Position numbers and translations under genes: made by a program
The notes under the pieces: generated by a model
The model's database searches: none
Told to the model about the DNA's origin: nothing
Seen by the model: only the letters and a program-made list of their open reading frames with translations
In this document: one piece after another, positions 51,561 to 61,749 of the stretch
How the letters are laid out: each line of letters begins with the position of its first letter
How positions within the stretch are numbered: the first letter of the stretch is position 1
DNA from: Streptomyces sp. NBC_00569
Lineage (GTDB): Bacteria > Actinomycetota > Actinomycetes > Streptomycetales > Streptomycetaceae
NCBI RefSeq assembly: GCF_036345255.1
Contig: NZ_CP107783.1
Location: 1,426,001 to 1,490,000, forward strand
Direction: 5' to 3'
Length of the DNA stretch: 64,000 nt

Positions 51561-52720
51561 GTCGCCTTGAGGATCTCGTCGTACACATCGGCCGTGCGCC
51601 GGGCCACGGTGTCCCAGCCGAACTCTCGCTCCGAGCGCTCACGCCCGGCGGCGCCCATGCGGGCCGCCTCTGCGGGGTCGGCCACCAGCCGGTTCAGGGC
51701 CTGCGCGAGCCCGCTCTCGAACGCCCGCGGGTCCCGCTCCTCGTAGGGCACGAGGAGGCCGGTCCTCCCGTCGGCGACGACCTCGGGGATGCCGCCTACA
51801 GCGGAGGCCACGACGGCGGTGCCGCACGCCATCGCCTCCAGGTTCACGATGCCGAGAGGTTCGTACACCGACGGACAGACGAACGCCCGTGCGTGAGTGA
51901 GGAGTTGAACCACCTCCGCGCGGGGCAGCATCTGCGGGATCCAGTGGACACCGTTCCGCAGGGCGCGCAACTCGTCCACGAGGGTGCGGAACTCACGCCC
52001 GATGGCAGGGGTGTCGGGGGCCCCGGCACACAGGACCAGCTGCGCCGACGGGTCCAGCTCCTTGGCCGCCCTCAGGAGATGGGGAACACCCTTCTGCCGC
52101 GTGATGCGACCGACGAAGACGATGTACGGGCGCTCCTGGTCGACGCCGATGCGGGCGAGGACGTCCGTGGCGGGGTCGGGGCGGTAGAGCGCGGAGTCGA
52201 TGCCGTTGTGGACGACGCGGACCCTCGCCGGGTCGATCGCCGGATAGCAGGCCAGGATGTCGTCGCGCATGGCTCCGGAGACCGCGATGACCGCGTCGGC
52301 CGCCTCCACGGCGGTGCGCTCGGCCCAGCTCGACAGGGCGTATCCGCCGCCGAGCTGCTCGGCCTTCCAGGGGCGCAGCGGTTCGAGCGAGTGCGCGGTC
52401 ACGATGTGCGGGATGCCGTGGAGCAACTTGCCCAGGTGGCCCGCCAGATTGGCGTACCAGGTGTGGGAGTGGACGAGTTCGCGGCCTTCGAGCGCGGCGG
52501 CGATGGACAGGTCCACGGAGAAGGTGCGCAGGGCGTCGTTCGCCCCGTCGAGCGCCTGCCAGGCGCGGTGCCGGCGCAGCCCCTCGGCGCCGCCCTCGCC
52601 CCAGGTGTGCACGTCGAGGTCGACGAGGGACCGTAACTCCCTCGCGAGGAACTCGACATGGACGCCCGCGCCGCCGTAGACGTCCGGCGGGTACTCCCGG
52701 GTCAGCAGTCCCACTCTCAT
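51557..52720 (-). CDS. glgA: GT4 glycosyltransferase GlgA (actinobacterial; probable maltose-1-phosphate synthase GlgM)
   Basis: A 387-residue GT-B enzyme with MRVGLLTREYPPDVYGGAGVHVE at the N-terminus and the nucleotide-sugar site VFVGRITRQKGVPHLLRA and PSVYEPLGIVNLEAMACGTA. It is annotated as glycogen synthase, but the mycobacterial homologue makes maltose-1-phosphate from ADP-glucose and glucose-1-phosphate for the GlgE pathway; streptomycete relatives probably do the same. The ATG at 52720 follows GGAGGT. The left end of a TnpB element begins within 20 bases of the start codon, so its native upstream region is displaced. glgC follows after the repeats. Confidence 0.9.
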   Translation of the reverse strand: MRVGLLTREYPPDVYGGAGVHVEFLARELRSLVDLDVHTWGEGGAEGLRRHRAWQALDGANDALRTFSVDLSIAAALEGRELVHSHTWYANLAGHLGKLLHGIPHIVTAHSLEPLRPWKAEQLGGGYALSSWAERTAVEAADAVIAVSGAMRDDILACYPAIDPARVRVVHNGIDSALYRPDPATDVLARIGVDQERPYIVFVGRITRQKGVPHLLRAAKELDPSAQLVLCAGAPDTPAIGREFRTLVDELRALRNGVHWIPQMLPRAEVVQLLTHARAFVCPSVYEPLGIVNLEAMACGTAVVASAVGGIPEVVADGRTGLLVPYEERDPRAFESGLAQALNRLVADPAEAARMGAAGRERSEREFGWDTVARRTADVYDEILKAT

Positions 52721-52738
52721 CGGATACCTCCGTGGATA

Positions 52739-54104
52739 CTCTGCCCTTCAGGGCGGAGAGGAATCGGATTTCTGCGGGGCAGGACAGCGGGCAACGGGCT
52801 GGGCTTCGCCGCCAGGGTGGATCGCAGTGCTTTGACCCGCGGGTTTGAACGTCACGTGTGGCGGCGGTAGTTTGCGAGTGTGACCACGAGGCAGGTGAAG
52901 CGGGCGTTCAAGTACCGCTTCTATCCGACGGATGCGCAGGCCGCGGAGCTGTCGCGCACGTTCGGATGCGTGCGGAAGGTCTACAACATGGCGCTTTCCG
53001 CTCGGACCGAGGCGTGGGCGCGGCAGGAGCGGATCAACTACAACCAGAGTTCCGCGATGCTGACGGCGTGGAAGCAGACCGAGGAACTGGCGTATCTGAA
53101 CGAGGTCTCGTCGGTCCCGCTCCAGCAGGCCCTGCGGCACCTGCAAGGAGCGTTTGCCCAGTTCTTCGGCAAGCGGGCCAAATACCCGCGCTTCAAGAGC
53201 CGGAAGAAGTCGCGGAAGTCCGCCGAGTACACCACCTCGGCGTTCCGTTTCAGGGACGGTGAGCTGAGACTCGCGAAGATGAGCGAGTCCCTTCGCATCG
53301 CGTGGTCGAGACCGCTACCGGACGGTGTGAGCCCTTCCACGGTGACGGTGTCGCAGGACGCGGCCGGCCGCTGGTTCGTCTCTCTGTTGTGCGACGACCC
53401 CAGCATCAGGCACCTGCCCACCAGTGATGCCGCGGCCGGTATCGATGCCGGTCTCGACCACCTCCTTACCCTCTCGACGGGCGAGAAGATCGCCAACCCG
53501 AGGCACGAGCGCCGCGACCGCATCGCACTTGCGAAAGCTCAGCGCAGGCTGGCGAAGAAGGCCAAAGGCTCGGCGAACCGGGCCAGGGCCCGGCGCAAAG
53601 TCGCCAAGATCCACGCCCGGATCGCGGACCGCCGCCGCGATGCCCTGCACAAGATCACCACTCGGCTCGTGCGCGAAAACCAAACGCTCGTGATCGAGGA
53701 CCTGACCGTGCGCAACATGGTCAAAAACCGGAAACTGGCCCGCGCCATCAGCGACGCCGCGTGGTCTCAGTTCCGGAGCATGCTGGAGTACAAGGCCGCC
53801 TGGTACGGGCGTGAGGTGATCGCGGTCGACCGGTGGTTCCCCTCCTCGAAACTGTGCTCCTCCTGCGGCACCTTGGCTGACGAGATGCCGCTCAGTGTCC
53901 GCACGTGGACGTGTGAGTGCGGCACGACCCATGACCGGGACGCGAACGCAGCGAAGAACCTTCTGGCCGCCGGGCGGGCGGTTGCAGCCTGCGGAGCTGG
54001 TGTAAGACCTCAACGGAGTTCTCCGGGCGGGCAGTCGGCGATGAAACAGGAAACCTCACGGCGCGAGCCGTAAGAACCCCTCCCTTCAGGGAGGGGAGCG
54101 TCAA
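52739..54104 (+). mobile_element. TnpB-only IS200/IS605-type insertion element
   Basis: A left hairpin, CTCTGCCC-TTCA-GGGCGGAG (52739-52758, one wobble), and a right hairpin, CCCCTCCC-TTCA-GGGAGGGG (54077-54096), followed by GCGTCAA, bracket tnpB. No tnpA lies in the window, so the element probably depends on a TnpA elsewhere. Exact ends are uncertain by some bases. The 3' part of tnpB through the right hairpin is where the guide omega-RNA of such elements is encoded. The element separates glgA from the FhuF-like gene and ends three bases short of the latter's stop codon. Confidence 0.85.
52880..54073 (+). CDS. tnpB: TnpB RNA-guided nuclease (IS200/IS605 OrfB)
   Basis: A 397-residue TnpB. 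The RuvC residues are Asp in AAGIDAGLDHLL, Glu in LVIEDLTVRN and Asp in HDRDANAAKN. The zinc ribbon has CSSCG and CECG, and the N-terminal RNA-binding part has AFKYRFYPTDAQ. All catalytic residues are intact, so it is potentially active as an omega-RNA-guided DNA nuclease. It starts at GTG 52880 with no strong ribosome-binding site. Its last 100 bases overlap the expected omega-RNA scaffold. Confidence 0.93.
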   Translation: MTTRQVKRAFKYRFYPTDAQAAELSRTFGCVRKVYNMALSARTEAWARQERINYNQSSAMLTAWKQTEELAYLNEVSSVPLQQALRHLQGAFAQFFGKRAKYPRFKSRKKSRKSAEYTTSAFRFRDGELRLAKMSESLRIAWSRPLPDGVSPSTVTVSQDAAGRWFVSLLCDDPSIRHLPTSDAAAGIDAGLDHLLTLSTGEKIANPRHERRDRIALAKAQRRLAKKAKGSANRARARRKVAKIHARIADRRRDALHKITTRLVRENQTLVIEDLTVRNMVKNRKLARAISDAAWSQFRSMLEYKAAWYGREVIAVDRWFPSSKLCSSCGTLADEMPLSVRTWTCECGTTHDRDANAAKNLLAAGRAVAACGAGVRPQRSSPGGQSAMKQETSRREP

Positions 54105-58407: not shown

Positions 58408-58552
58408 GGGCAGCTCCTTCTCCGTAGAGATATCCGTCGAGACTTCCGCAGCGAGTCCTGAGGGCTCGAGAGAGCGTCGCAGCGTCACCGTACGCCTCAC
58501 CGCGCTACAAATGAACAGGAACGATCACCTCCCTACGTCAGGAGCGACAGGC

Positions 58553-59992
58553 ATGAGCAAGTCAGCCCAGATCGGTGTCACGGGACTCGCCGTCATGGGG
58601 CGCAACCTCGCCCGGAACTTCGCCAGGAACGGCTACACGGTCGCCCTGCACAACCGCACCGCGTCCCGCACGCACGACCTCGTCGCGGAGTTCGGCGGCG
58701 AGGGCGAGTTCGTCCCCACCGAGACCGCGGAGGAGTTCGTGGCGGCGCTGGAACGGCCGCGCCGCCTGGTGATCATGGTCAAGGCCGGTGACCCCACGGA
58801 CGCGGTGATTCAGGAGTTCGCGCCGCTCCTGGAGCCCGGCGACATGATCGTCGACGGCGGCAACGCCCACTTCGCGGACACTCGGCGCCGCGAGCGCGAA
58901 CTGCGCGAGCGCGGCATCCACTTCGTCGGCACGGGCGTCTCCGGCGGCGAGGAGGGCGCCCTGAACGGGCCGAGCATCATGCCGGGCGGCAGCGAGGAGT
59001 CGTACGCGGCGCTCGGCCCGATGCTGGAGAAGATCTCCGCCAAGGCCAAGGACGGCGCCCCGTGCGTGACGCACGTCGGCCCGGACGGCGCCGGCCACTT
59101 CGTGAAGATGGTCCACAACGGCATCGAGTACGCCGACATGCAGCTCATCGGCGAGGCCTACCAGCTCCTGCGCGACGTGGCGGGCTACTCCCCCGCGCAG
59201 ATCGCCGACATCTTCCGGAAGTGGAACACGGGCCGGCTCGACTCGTATCTGATCGAGATCACGGCCGAGGTCCTTTCCCACGTGGACACGGCGACGGGCA
59301 AGCCCTTCGTGGACGTCGTCGTCGACGAGGCGGAGCAGAAGGGCACGGGGCGCTGGACGGTGCAGATCGCCCTCGACCTGGGCGTCCCGGTGTCGGGTAT
59401 CGCCGAGGCCGTCTTCGCGCGCTCGCTCTCCGGCCACGCGGACCTGCGCGCCGCCTCGAAGGACCTGGCGGGCCCGACGCCGACCGCGCTGAGCGAGCCG
59501 GAGGCGGCGGCGTTCGCCGACCGGGTCGAGCAGGCCCTGTACGCGTCGAAGATCGTGTCGTACACGCAGGGCTTCCACGAGATCGCGGCGGGCAGCGAGG
59601 CCTACGACTGGAACATCGACCTGGGCGCCGTCGCCTCGATCTGGCGCGGCGGCTGCATCATCCGGGCCGCGTTCCTCGACCGGATCACGGCCGCGTACGA
59701 CGCCCGGCCCGACCTGCCGAGCCTCCTCTCGGACAAGACGTTCGCGCAGGAGATCGGCGCGGCGCAGGACGACTGGCGTGCCGTCCTGGTCGCCGCGACG
59801 GTCGAAGGCGTGCCGGCGCCCGGGTTCGCCGCCGCGCTCGCGTACTACGACGCGCTGCGCGCCGACCGCCTCCCGGCCGCGCTCACCCAGGGCCAGCGGG
59901 ACTTCTTCGGCGCCCACACCTACCGCCGCACGGACCGCGACGGCGCGTTCCACACGCTGTGGGGCGGCGACCGGTCCGAGGTGTCGGCGTAA
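58553..59992 (+). CDS. gndA: 6-phosphogluconate dehydrogenase, decarboxylating
   Basis: A 479-residue enzyme of the oxidative pentose phosphate pathway (6-phosphogluconate to ribulose-5-phosphate, CO2 and NADPH). It shows GVTGLAVMGRNLARN (Rossmann loop), FVGTGVSGGEEGALNGPSIM, the substrate/catalytic block GHFVKMVHNGIEYADMQL with Lys and His, and a C-terminal FFGAHTYRRTDRDGAFHT tail typical of the long form. ATG 58553 follows AGGAG. The length is normal. It lies alone, followed by the element remnant. Confidence 0.95.
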   Translation: MSKSAQIGVTGLAVMGRNLARNFARNGYTVALHNRTASRTHDLVAEFGGEGEFVPTETAEEFVAALERPRRLVIMVKAGDPTDAVIQEFAPLLEPGDMIVDGGNAHFADTRRRERELRERGIHFVGTGVSGGEEGALNGPSIMPGGSEESYAALGPMLEKISAKAKDGAPCVTHVGPDGAGHFVKMVHNGIEYADMQLIGEAYQLLRDVAGYSPAQIADIFRKWNTGRLDSYLIEITAEVLSHVDTATGKPFVDVVVDEAEQKGTGRWTVQIALDLGVPVSGIAEAVFARSLSGHADLRAASKDLAGPTPTALSEPEAAAFADRVEQALYASKIVSYTQGFHEIAAGSEAYDWNIDLGAVASIWRGGCIIRAAFLDRITAAYDARPDLPSLLSDKTFAQEIGAAQDDWRAVLVAATVEGVPAPGFAAALAYYDALRADRLPAALTQGQRDFFGAHTYRRTDRDGAFHTLWGGDRSEVSA

Positions 59993-60022
59993 GGCCTTGC
60001 CGCTACCGAACACTTGCCCTAC

Positions 60023-60280
60023 ACCTCCACCCTGAAGGGTGGAGGTGGAGGGCATCCTGCCCGTAGCGGCCCGGAGGGGCGCAGTGGCATGGCCAGGATC
60101 ACCTTGTCCGACAACGGAGTTGTCGGACCTACCGCCGGACGGGCGGAAAGTCAGGTCTGCGGAGGCCTTGTAAGACCGACCCTCACCGGTCGGCAGAGGC
60201 CCGTGAAACAGGAACCCAAGGTGGTACGGCGGAGCAGTACGGACCGGAATTCCCTGCCCTCGGGCAGGGAAGGGCGTCAA
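60023..60280 (+). mobile_element. Internally deleted TnpB-type element with both end hairpins
   Basis: The left hairpin is ACCTCCACCC-TGAA-GGGTGGAGGT (60023-60046), a perfect ten-base stem. The right hairpin is TTCCCTGCCC-TC-GGGCAGGGAA (60250-60271), followed by GGCGTCAA, the same end as the intact element at 54097-54104. Between them a read-through frame gives CGGLVRPTLTGRQRPVKQEP, a clear relative of the TnpB C-terminus CGAGVRPQ...MKQE of the intact copy. The remaining about 900 bases of tnpB are gone. It is a 260-bp non-autonomous derivative that still carries the region encoding omega-RNA. Confidence 0.8.
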
Positions 60281-60477
60281 ATGGGTGAAGGCTCCGGCTC
60301 GGGCGGCGCCGGGTCCGGGTCGGGGTTCGGCGGGCCCGGGGACGGCGGGGGCGGCGGAGGCTGCGGTGTGGGGCGGGGCGACGGGGGTGTCGGAACCGGG
60401 GCCGGGAACGGACCGGGATCGGGGACGTCGGGCCCCGGCGTGGGCGGGGTGACGGGGTCGGGGAAGGGATGCGTCAT
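60277..60477 (-). CDS. Short proline-rich protein
   Basis: A 66-residue protein starting at ATG 60477 with an excellent AGGAGG eight bases upstream. About half the residues are proline, interspersed with Asp, Glu and Gly (MTHPFPDPVTPPTPGPDVPD), with no signal peptide. The stop codon lies inside the terminal GCGTCAA of the element remnant, so the present C-terminus may be set by the insertion. Function unknown. Confidence 0.6.
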   Translation of the reverse strand: MTHPFPDPVTPPTPGPDVPDPGPFPAPVPTPPSPRPTPQPPPPPPSPGPPNPDPDPAPPEPEPSPI

Positions 60478-60599
60478 CGATTCCTCCTGGGGGGGTCGGA
60501 GGCCGGCCGCGTCCCGGGCGGGGGGCGGCCGGTCCCTGCCACTGTCTCCCGGCACGCGTGCCCACGCCTGCCAGGTCCACACACCGCCCCGGCCGGCTC

Positions 60600-61058
60600 T
60601 CAGCCCTTGATACGGGTGAGGCGTACGACGGGAATGTCCCGCTCGGTCTTCTTCTGGTAGTCCGCGTACGGGGCGAAGATCTCCACGAGGTGGGGCCACA
60701 CCCTGGCCTTCTCCTCCGGGGAGAGAGTCTCGGCGCGGGCGTCGAACCGCTCCGTCTCGACGCGCAGCCGCACGTCCGGGTTGACCTCCAGGTTCAGGTA
60801 CCACTCGGGGTGCTGGTCGGCGCCGCCCTTCGAGGCGACGATCAGGTAGTCCTCGCCGTCACGGTCGTAGATCAGAACCGTGCGGCGCCACTGCCCGGTG
60901 CGACGCCCCTGGTAGTCGAGCAGGAGGCAGGGCGCGCTCATCGGGCCCGGGATCGTCGTGCCCTCGGTGCCGCCGGACTCCTCGTACAGGCGGGCCTGCT
61001 CCGCGACCCAGCCGGTGGGGCTGATCACGACGTCGGTGCCGGTCTCGTCCTCGGCCAT
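60600..61058 (-). CDS. Deazaflavin (F420)-dependent nitroreductase-family protein
   Basis: A 152-residue split-barrel protein of the Ddn/F420H2-dependent family: CLLLDYQGRRTGQWRRTVLI, DYLIVASKGGADQHPEWYLN, and ARVWPHLVEIFAPYADYQKKT at the C-terminus. These enzymes use reduced F420, which streptomycetes make, to reduce quinones or other substrates. ATG 61058 follows GAGGAG. It is the last gene of a leftward group with the racemase-family and acetyltransferase genes. Confidence 0.88.
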   Translation of the reverse strand: MAEDETGTDVVISPTGWVAEQARLYEESGGTEGTTIPGPMSAPCLLLDYQGRRTGQWRRTVLIYDRDGEDYLIVASKGGADQHPEWYLNLEVNPDVRLRVETERFDARAETLSPEEKARVWPHLVEIFAPYADYQKKTERDIPVVRLTRIKG

Positions 61059-61113
61059 CTGGCTCTCCTCGTTCAGCTCAAGCCGGTGTCACTCGGTACG
61101 AACTCGGCTCAGC

Positions 61114-61749
61114 CTAGGCCGTGTTGTCCGCCGCCGCGCGCAGGCCGGGGCGGGGGCTGGACAGGACGGGGACCGTCGCGGTGGTCCGGTCGGCGGCGGG
61201 CGCCATGGAGGCCTGGGCGAGCACGACGACGTCGACATCGGTGAGGGCGTCCACGGCGGCGGCCACGAGGTCCCGGTACCCGTCCCGGTCACCGGCCTCG
61301 AAACGCTCCCAGGCTCCTGCGACCAGCACCGTGCGGACGTCGACGGGGCGGCCGGCCCGGGCGGCCTCCTCCTCGACGAGGGCGACGGTCGGCGCGAGGG
61401 TGCTCTCCAGGGCGGCGACCACGGCGACAACGCGTCCGGCCTCGACCGCGGCGGCGGCCATCGGCCGGTCCACGCGCAGGACGGGGACGCCGACGGCGGC
61501 GGACTGGGCCTCGGCGACGCCGCCGATGGTCGAGCAGGTGCAGAGCACGGCGGCCGCCCCGTCGGCCACTGCGGTTTCGAGCAGCGCGCGCACGTCGTCC
61601 GCGACGGCGTCGGGCCCGGCGGTCCTGGCCCGTTCGAGCAGACTCTCGTCCACGACGTGGCGCAGGGCGAGGCCGGGGTGGTCGGTGTCGCGCAGGGCGT
61701 CGAAGACGGGGACGTGGACCGGGGAGGTGTGCAGGAGGGCGAGGGTCAC
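61114..61749 (-). CDS. Asp/Glu racemase superfamily protein
   Basis: A 211-residue protein of the Asp/Glu/hydantoin racemase superfamily. The first active-site Cys is in AVLCTCSTIGG; the second position reads VVVLAQASMAP, with Ala where racemases have Cys. It therefore may act like a decarboxylase or isomerase using one Cys, or have lost racemase activity. The start is GTG 61749, five bases after the acetyltransferase stop, so the two are probably coupled. Confidence 0.78.
   Translation of the reverse strand: MTLALLHTSPVHVPVFDALRDTDHPGLALRHVVDESLLERARTAGPDAVADDVRALLETAVADGAAAVLCTCSTIGGVAEAQSAAVGVPVLRVDRPMAAAAVEAGRVVAVVAALESTLAPTVALVEEEAARAGRPVDVRTVLVAGAWERFEAGDRDGYRDLVAAAVDALTDVDVVVLAQASMAPAADRTTATVPVLSSPRPGLRAAADNTA

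Follow-up and report, generated by a model that had tools for sequence, protein, structure and literature searches.

The window, the whole 64,000-nucleotide stretch of Streptomyces DNA analysed here, holds near its right end a short sequence with transposon-like termini, and the question raised by this locus is whether it is the debris of an intact TnpB element at 52.7–54.1 kb or a mobile unit in its own right, and which proteins it would then depend on. An earlier note had described it as a 260-bp remnant of the 52.7–54.1 kb type at 60023–60280, which could move in trans and could arm the intact TnpB with a second guide.

Boundaries, ends and insertion site

The ends of the element were fixed by an empty site in a sister genome (G161), where window positions 58600–60006 directly abut 60281–61600 at the junction ...GCCGCTAC|ATGGGTGAAGG..., the two flanks being 97% and 93% identical to those of the window. 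This exact empty site, together with dispersed relatives, defines a whole non-autonomous, gene-less IS200/IS605 element of 274 bp at 60007–60280 on the plus strand; the right end of the 260-bp unit was placed correctly, but the true start is 60007. The pentanucleotide GCTAC (60002–60006, plus strand), a candidate TAM, remains to the left of the inserted element and is also present at the G161 empty site, and comparison of the window with G161 reveals no target duplication. The reverse case was also observed: a copy in G161 (L012) has no counterpart in the window's genome, which shows GCGCTAT|CACGAG at that site. In the 24 aligned copies described below, the five bases preceding the element are GCTAC in 15, GCTAT in four and another sequence in five. 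IS200/IS605 elements characteristically insert 3' of a short fixed target and do not duplicate it. The gnd loci of 18 relatives are too diverged for an exact junction to be read, and comparison of the flanks of L006 with 100 genomes gave no exact empty-site junction among the matches listed.

The element lies 14 bp behind the 6-phosphogluconate dehydrogenase gene (gnd, 58511–59992, plus strand), a possible source of read-through. On the minus strand a proline-rich frame (60277–60480) has its stop codon within the terminal TCAA of the element; by eye, a similar sequence seems to be present after gnd in several relatives that lack the element.

Both hairpins and the terminal GCGTCAA (60274–60280) to which the note had drawn attention are present, as is the VRP...KQEP stretch, which falls within a reading frame at 60014–60610. 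The left end (60015–60054, plus strand) consists of an outer stem, 60015–60019/60050–60054, enclosing a hairpin at 60025–60044, with 95.0% and 94.7% of alignment cells paired; compensatory cells are few here (5 vs 0.7), and the layout is the same as in the TnpA elements L075–L078. At the other end, the right-end hairpin (60250–60271, plus strand), in which 28 cells have changed on both sides, is immediately preceded by GAAT (60247–60250, plus strand; GGAAT in 21 of 24 aligned rows), which we take to resemble the guide tetranucleotide of IS608. The final bases, TCAA (60277–60280, plus strand), resemble a right cleavage site and coincide with the empty-site boundary; GTCA closes all 24 aligned rows, and GTCAA 23 of them.

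These features are those of a PATE (palindrome-associated transposable element). Palindromes lie near both ends, terminal inverted repeats are absent, a transposase would not fit into 274 bp, tblastn finds neither tnpA nor tnpB inside, and insertion was precise, 3' of a short target. Furthermore, the left end resembles those of L075–L078 and of a TnpB element (L044) of the same genome, and the right-end hairpin with TCAA resembles the TnpB elements of that genome. Passages of the PATE literature describe gene-less elements with near-terminal palindromes, no terminal inverted repeats and no target duplication (PMC3119063, PMC7290912), and for Halanaerobium a PATE of ~271 nt composed of a 28-nt left end with its hairpin, 58 nt from the 3' terminus of tnpB, and a right end (PMC7290912). 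As portrayed there, the PATEs of Haloquadratum and Halanaerobium are like the Streptomyces element in their palindromes and lack of genes, the Halanaerobium anatomy being nearly the same, whereas the Streptomyces element has a GCTAC target, an omega-RNA fold kept by compensatory change and an extra 5' hairpin; a guide RNA is not discussed in these passages (PMC3119063, PMC7290912).

The omega-RNA-like scaffold and its predicted guide

Covariation and covariance-model matches delimit an omega-RNA-like scaffold of 177 nt (model R1) at 60104–60280 on the plus strand. The structure counts and R1 are based on an alignment of 24 long copies from 18 genomes; four of the 28 long copies (L021, L032, L069 and L074) were excluded for an insertion, a core deletion or a broken right end. 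In a seven-helix structure drawn by hand for the 24 copies, 95.7% of cells are paired. We observed 76 cells changed on both sides, compared with 20.9 ± 4.6 in shuffled alignments (0 of 500 reached this count) and 4 to 12 in slid controls; 48 of these compensatory cells lie in helices 1–6 and 28 in the right-end hairpin (helix 7). A weaker measure, the number of further pair types, gave 43 against 38.7 after shuffling, and 19 of 500 shuffles reached 43. The covariation is strong, but no probability is attached to it because kinship among the copies inflates such counts. Single-sequence folding was uninformative (z = −0.80 and −0.88). The window copy, itself one of the 24 from which the covariance model was made, scores 211 bits with it.

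The scaffold begins with a 5' hairpin of the solo elements (60106–60128, plus strand), 93.6% paired with 10 cells changed on both sides; in TnpB-linked relatives this hairpin is poorly kept, with 78.1% of cells paired and about half of the cells gaps. Helix 2 (60132–60146, plus strand) pairs in solo copies and TnpB-linked RNAs alike. Helices 3 and 4 (60164–60201, plus strand), a long-range helix 60164–60167/60198–60201 around the hairpin 60176–60193, are 98% paired in TnpB-linked RNAs, and this stretch includes part of the VRP...KQEP frame. The hairpin preceding the right end (helix 6, 60220–60245, plus strand) pairs in the 24 copies. Since the copies have the same gene-less 5' region, a single deletion ancestor is the simplest history, from which we infer that the compensatory changes arose after the loss of tnpB.

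R1, although derived from solo copies alone, matches 19 places in its own genome: 17 TnpB loci, the window copy and one further solo copy. The TnpB matches fall at the 3' ends of 17 of the 54 TnpB places of this genome, including a few broken genes; the remaining TnpB groups of the genome were unmatched by R1 at E up to 1. The helices of the solo copies reappeared in an alignment of 25 TnpB-linked matches, in which 92.2% of cells were paired and the count of compensatory cells was 212, compared with 70.1 ± 6.7; its rows are our selection from among all the matches, and it was fitted to R1 and leans toward it. The motifs between the helices are also common to solo copies and TnpB-linked RNAs. 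The fold is homologous to RNA at TnpB 3' ends and stops at the right end of the element. The comparison extends to the right end of the intact element in the window, whose omega-RNA region (53951–54104, plus strand) matches R1 at 54.3 bits and has the same GTCAA end, so that retention of an omega-RNA region, as originally proposed, is borne out.

In ISDra2, according to passages of PMC8612924, the reRNA is formed from the tnpB 3' end and the right end, takes its guide from the flank and works with a TAM identical to the insertion target; the element that gives rise to that reRNA carries tnpB itself, whereas the Streptomyces element has none. The predicted guide here is the flanking DNA at 60281–60300 (plus strand), which is identical in 20 of 20 bases at the G161 empty site, where it stands beside GCTAC, the putative TAM. 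No perfect match to CTAC followed by guide bases 1–16 is present in the window's own genome, and the nearest guide-matching site outside the element carries two mismatches, one of them within CTAC.

Rfam at gathering thresholds yielded nothing in the window. At E up to 5, in 15 loci, the sole seemingly relevant family was HgcC (RF00062), whose matches were all below the gathering score: a weak one spans the scaffold and right end of the solo locus L096 (E = 0.0041), another lies in L017 (E = 1.8), and the window copy has none. By our reading of its consensus, HgcC may itself be an IS605 right end.

The second solo copy in the genome of the window (L155, 6993705–6993878, at 6.99 Mb) scores 104.5 bits, with a left end that was not seen. 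Its counterpart (L156) occupies the same place in G161, with 40 identical bases downstream; both have a lipoyl ligase-type gene on one side and, on the other, a gene that gave no Pfam match. A second family (L096–L102, L107 and L110) has the same core with no tnpB frame seen adjacent, the tblastn search for tnpB covering the places of L097 and L107 (as L211 and L219). Its members end in GTCAA or a similar sequence, and those that were compared have no flanks in common. L103 has the core, and no right end was found there.

Copies across Streptomyces and candidate protein partners

Some match to the element occurs in 58 of 392 genomes of the genus, and copies that run from the left end (query position 16 or lower) through at least position 199 in 20. 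Near-full-length relatives in other genomes, at 78–88% identity, together with the 211-bit score of the window copy place the element far beyond chance. No pair among the 24 aligned copies shares a left or right flank at E 1e-10, and the copies therefore look like independent insertions. Dispersal and exact empty sites thus uphold the suggestion that the unit moves without genes of its own. With the window TnpB as the single query, tblastn gave no match in 43 loci, each taken with 1.5-kb flanks.

The exact left-end pattern retrieved 16 loci from GTDB species genomes, a set biased toward intact left ends; all are in Streptomyces, four of them in S. colonosanans, and GCTAC precedes the element in all 16. 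An R1 match of 180–220 bits lies right behind the left end in 15 of these loci; the exception, L196, has a weak match of 64.6 bits that overlaps the left end. Three TnpB queries and one TnpA query matched these 16 loci only beside the element (L198 and L188), and none matched between the left end and the R1 match. Plasmids and phages gave no match to the element, and no viral contig carried the one exact left-end pattern searched for. A generic left-end motif search and one pattern overlooked some elements. The genomes seen carry one to four copies, and copies could persist unused.

Two of the excluded copies, L074 and L021, from different genomes, contain a similar palindromic insert of ~40 bp in the loop of the hairpin that precedes the right end, which recalls the small repeats targeting PATE palindromes described for Haloquadratum in passages of PMC3119063. 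In two species a diverged copy sits at the same locus (L152 and L153, in G252 and G122); the right flanks are similar, and the would-be guide is therefore partly conserved.

Candidate partners were surveyed in 121 genomes with stricter filters. R1 matched in at least 54 of them, and 30 loci, the window's and 29 new ones, were classified. Among the matches listed, the six classified loci above 100 bits were all without a TnpB match, and 21 of the other 24 had one, at 65–90 bits; for 16 of the 21 the nearest TnpB was that of L104 (up to 90.2 bits) and for five that of the window (up to 72.3 bits). The TnpBs closest to L104 in the window's own genome are L043, L044 and L045 (62, 61 and 58% identical). 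L044 (9.62 Mb) follows GCTAC and L043 (1.73 Mb) follows GCTAT, with the left end CAGTG-hairpin-GTGAAGC; their targets, like those of the TnpA elements, are deduced from left-end likeness rather than from empty sites. The R1 scores in this genome are 64.8 bits for L044, 62.9 for L045 and 48.1 for L043; the window's intact TnpB and its nine relatives range from 54.3 to 63.5. The GCTAY clade and the neighbour's family are not distinguished by these in-genome scores, and because the scores overlap (48–65 vs 54–64 bits) the case for a partner rests on the target site. A TnpB whose omega-RNA is nearly identical was not found: TnpB-linked scores in this genome reach at most 64.8 bits, compared with 211 for the window copy.

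The TnpA genes of L075–L078 encode DHVHLLVH and QYIENQ, and the left ends of their elements begin with TCTAC and have in common the block CTTG-CAGTGCTCC-hairpin-GTGAAG-CATC, at CTAC. TnpBs adjoining CTAC-type TnpAs score low with R1 (17.8–25.7 bits, L085–L087). In the TnpA of the L043 element HVR replaces HVH, and this protein may be dead.

The intact neighbour is a TnpB-only element of another family (52721–54104, plus strand), inserted after TCAT (52717–52720). Its gene (52880–54073, plus strand) encodes the motifs GIDAG, VIEDL and DRDANAA, of RuvC type. YTCAT precedes nine of ten copies of this family, in which two pairs look identical, whereas GCTAC or GCTAT precedes 19 of 24 solo copies, and the left ends differ; the claim that the solo element is a remnant of the 52.7–54.1 kb type is accordingly not supported. 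By the ISDra2 rule that the TAM is the target, the neighbour would not cut the empty site of the solo element. It is a doubtful partner, since its family sits at YTCAT and the solo element at GCTAC. The idea that the solo RNA arms the intact TnpB is weakened, the GCTAC/GCTAT TnpBs belonging to another clade, though the in-genome scores overlap. The intact element is also missing from G161, where the site has ~41 bp extra between two TCAT motifs.

Competing explanations and the proposed mode of life

If the element were a PATE living on TnpA alone, its guide RNA would be dead and the fold would be kept as the single-stranded DNA right end for transposition. This reading, which we consider unlikely, agrees with the 28 of 76 compensatory cells in the right-end hairpin, with a search of 59900–60500 that found no sigma-70-like promoter, and with the silence of the PATE passages on guide function (PMC3119063). 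However, 48 of the 76 cells lie outside that hairpin, in helices 1–6, and the motifs between the helices recur in TnpB-linked RNAs. A decayed copy of the 52.7–54.1 kb type, giving the neighbouring TnpB a second guide, is an improbable explanation. The scaffold fold is common to both, at 54.3 bits for the neighbour and up to 63.5 for its same-genome relatives, level with the GCTAY clade, and the intact TnpB has RuvC-type motifs; yet the left end and target differ, the top TnpB-linked scores in other genomes belong to another clade among the matches listed, and copies of the 274-bp unit lie at unrelated loci in other genomes.

We give very little credence to a host-adopted regulatory RNA or terminator that is no longer a transposon. 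In four genomes a related sequence does occupy a common position, ahead of an NlpC/P60-type gene, and the adjacent upstream gene is co-directional, aiming into the element, in 14 of 16 copies (gene calls were crude, and 8 of the 24 copies had none). Against this, the window copy is an insertion missing from G161, no terminator-like site was found at the element, and the direction bias fits survival between convergent genes: the downstream gene also aims into the element, in 13 of 18 copies with a crude call, and these directions tell little about orientation because they largely reflect the geometry of convergent genes.

We favour, with a probability of about 65%, a PATE without tnpA and tnpB that retains hairpin ends suited to a Y1 transposase, together with a full omega-RNA scaffold that would serve a GCTAY TnpB. 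Such a solo element probably relies on a transposase and a nuclease that other loci in the cell supply. It would be moved in trans by a TnpA that acts at CTAC, and transcription, perhaps by read-through from gnd, would yield an omega-RNA guided by the right flank. With this RNA a TnpB that has GCTAY as its TAM would cut the element's own empty site, and repair of the cut would restore the element. A bolder and only tentative view is that the solo elements are parasites of both a Y1 TnpA, which moves them, and a GCTAY TnpB, which maintains them, and that together they form a scattered guide array. Each dispersed copy would then be a genomic guide against its own empty site, the array would serve a few TnpB genes, and the 5' hairpin would replace the lost tnpB message.

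If the RNA is active, gene-less elements would keep RNA-guided retention through a borrowed nuclease, and a TnpB would have more guides at its disposal than copies of its own. The Streptomyces family suits direct testing, with a preferred target, natural empty sites and candidate partners on the same chromosome; annotation based on tnpB alone overlooks such loci. Guide loci apart from the nuclease gene include the standalone omega-RNAs of IscB and the gene-less IS605 elements discussed with TnpB. Passages of PMC10432273 report Fanzor 'ghost' loci, omega-RNAs without a protein, which were proposed to arm a nuclease in trans; these are eukaryotic and the passages describe no exact empty site, whereas the Streptomyces element has one. 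Among the open-licence PMC papers listed, no title or abstract dealt with a Streptomyces PATE or solo omega-RNA. Our claim to novelty is modest, because the features of PATEs are found here and the Fanzor loci have been described; what is added to the knowledge of PATEs is a constrained omega-RNA fold, a solo-specific 5' hairpin and target-matched candidate partners.

The four loci before an NlpC/P60-type gene (L095, L105, L150 and L151, in G289, G205, G097 and G007; the Pfam assignment is for L151 only) contain the omega-RNA core and have parts of both flanks in common, and L095 and L105 are without a TCAA terminus. Their core may be an adopted leader RNA, though its conservation does not clearly exceed that of everything around it.
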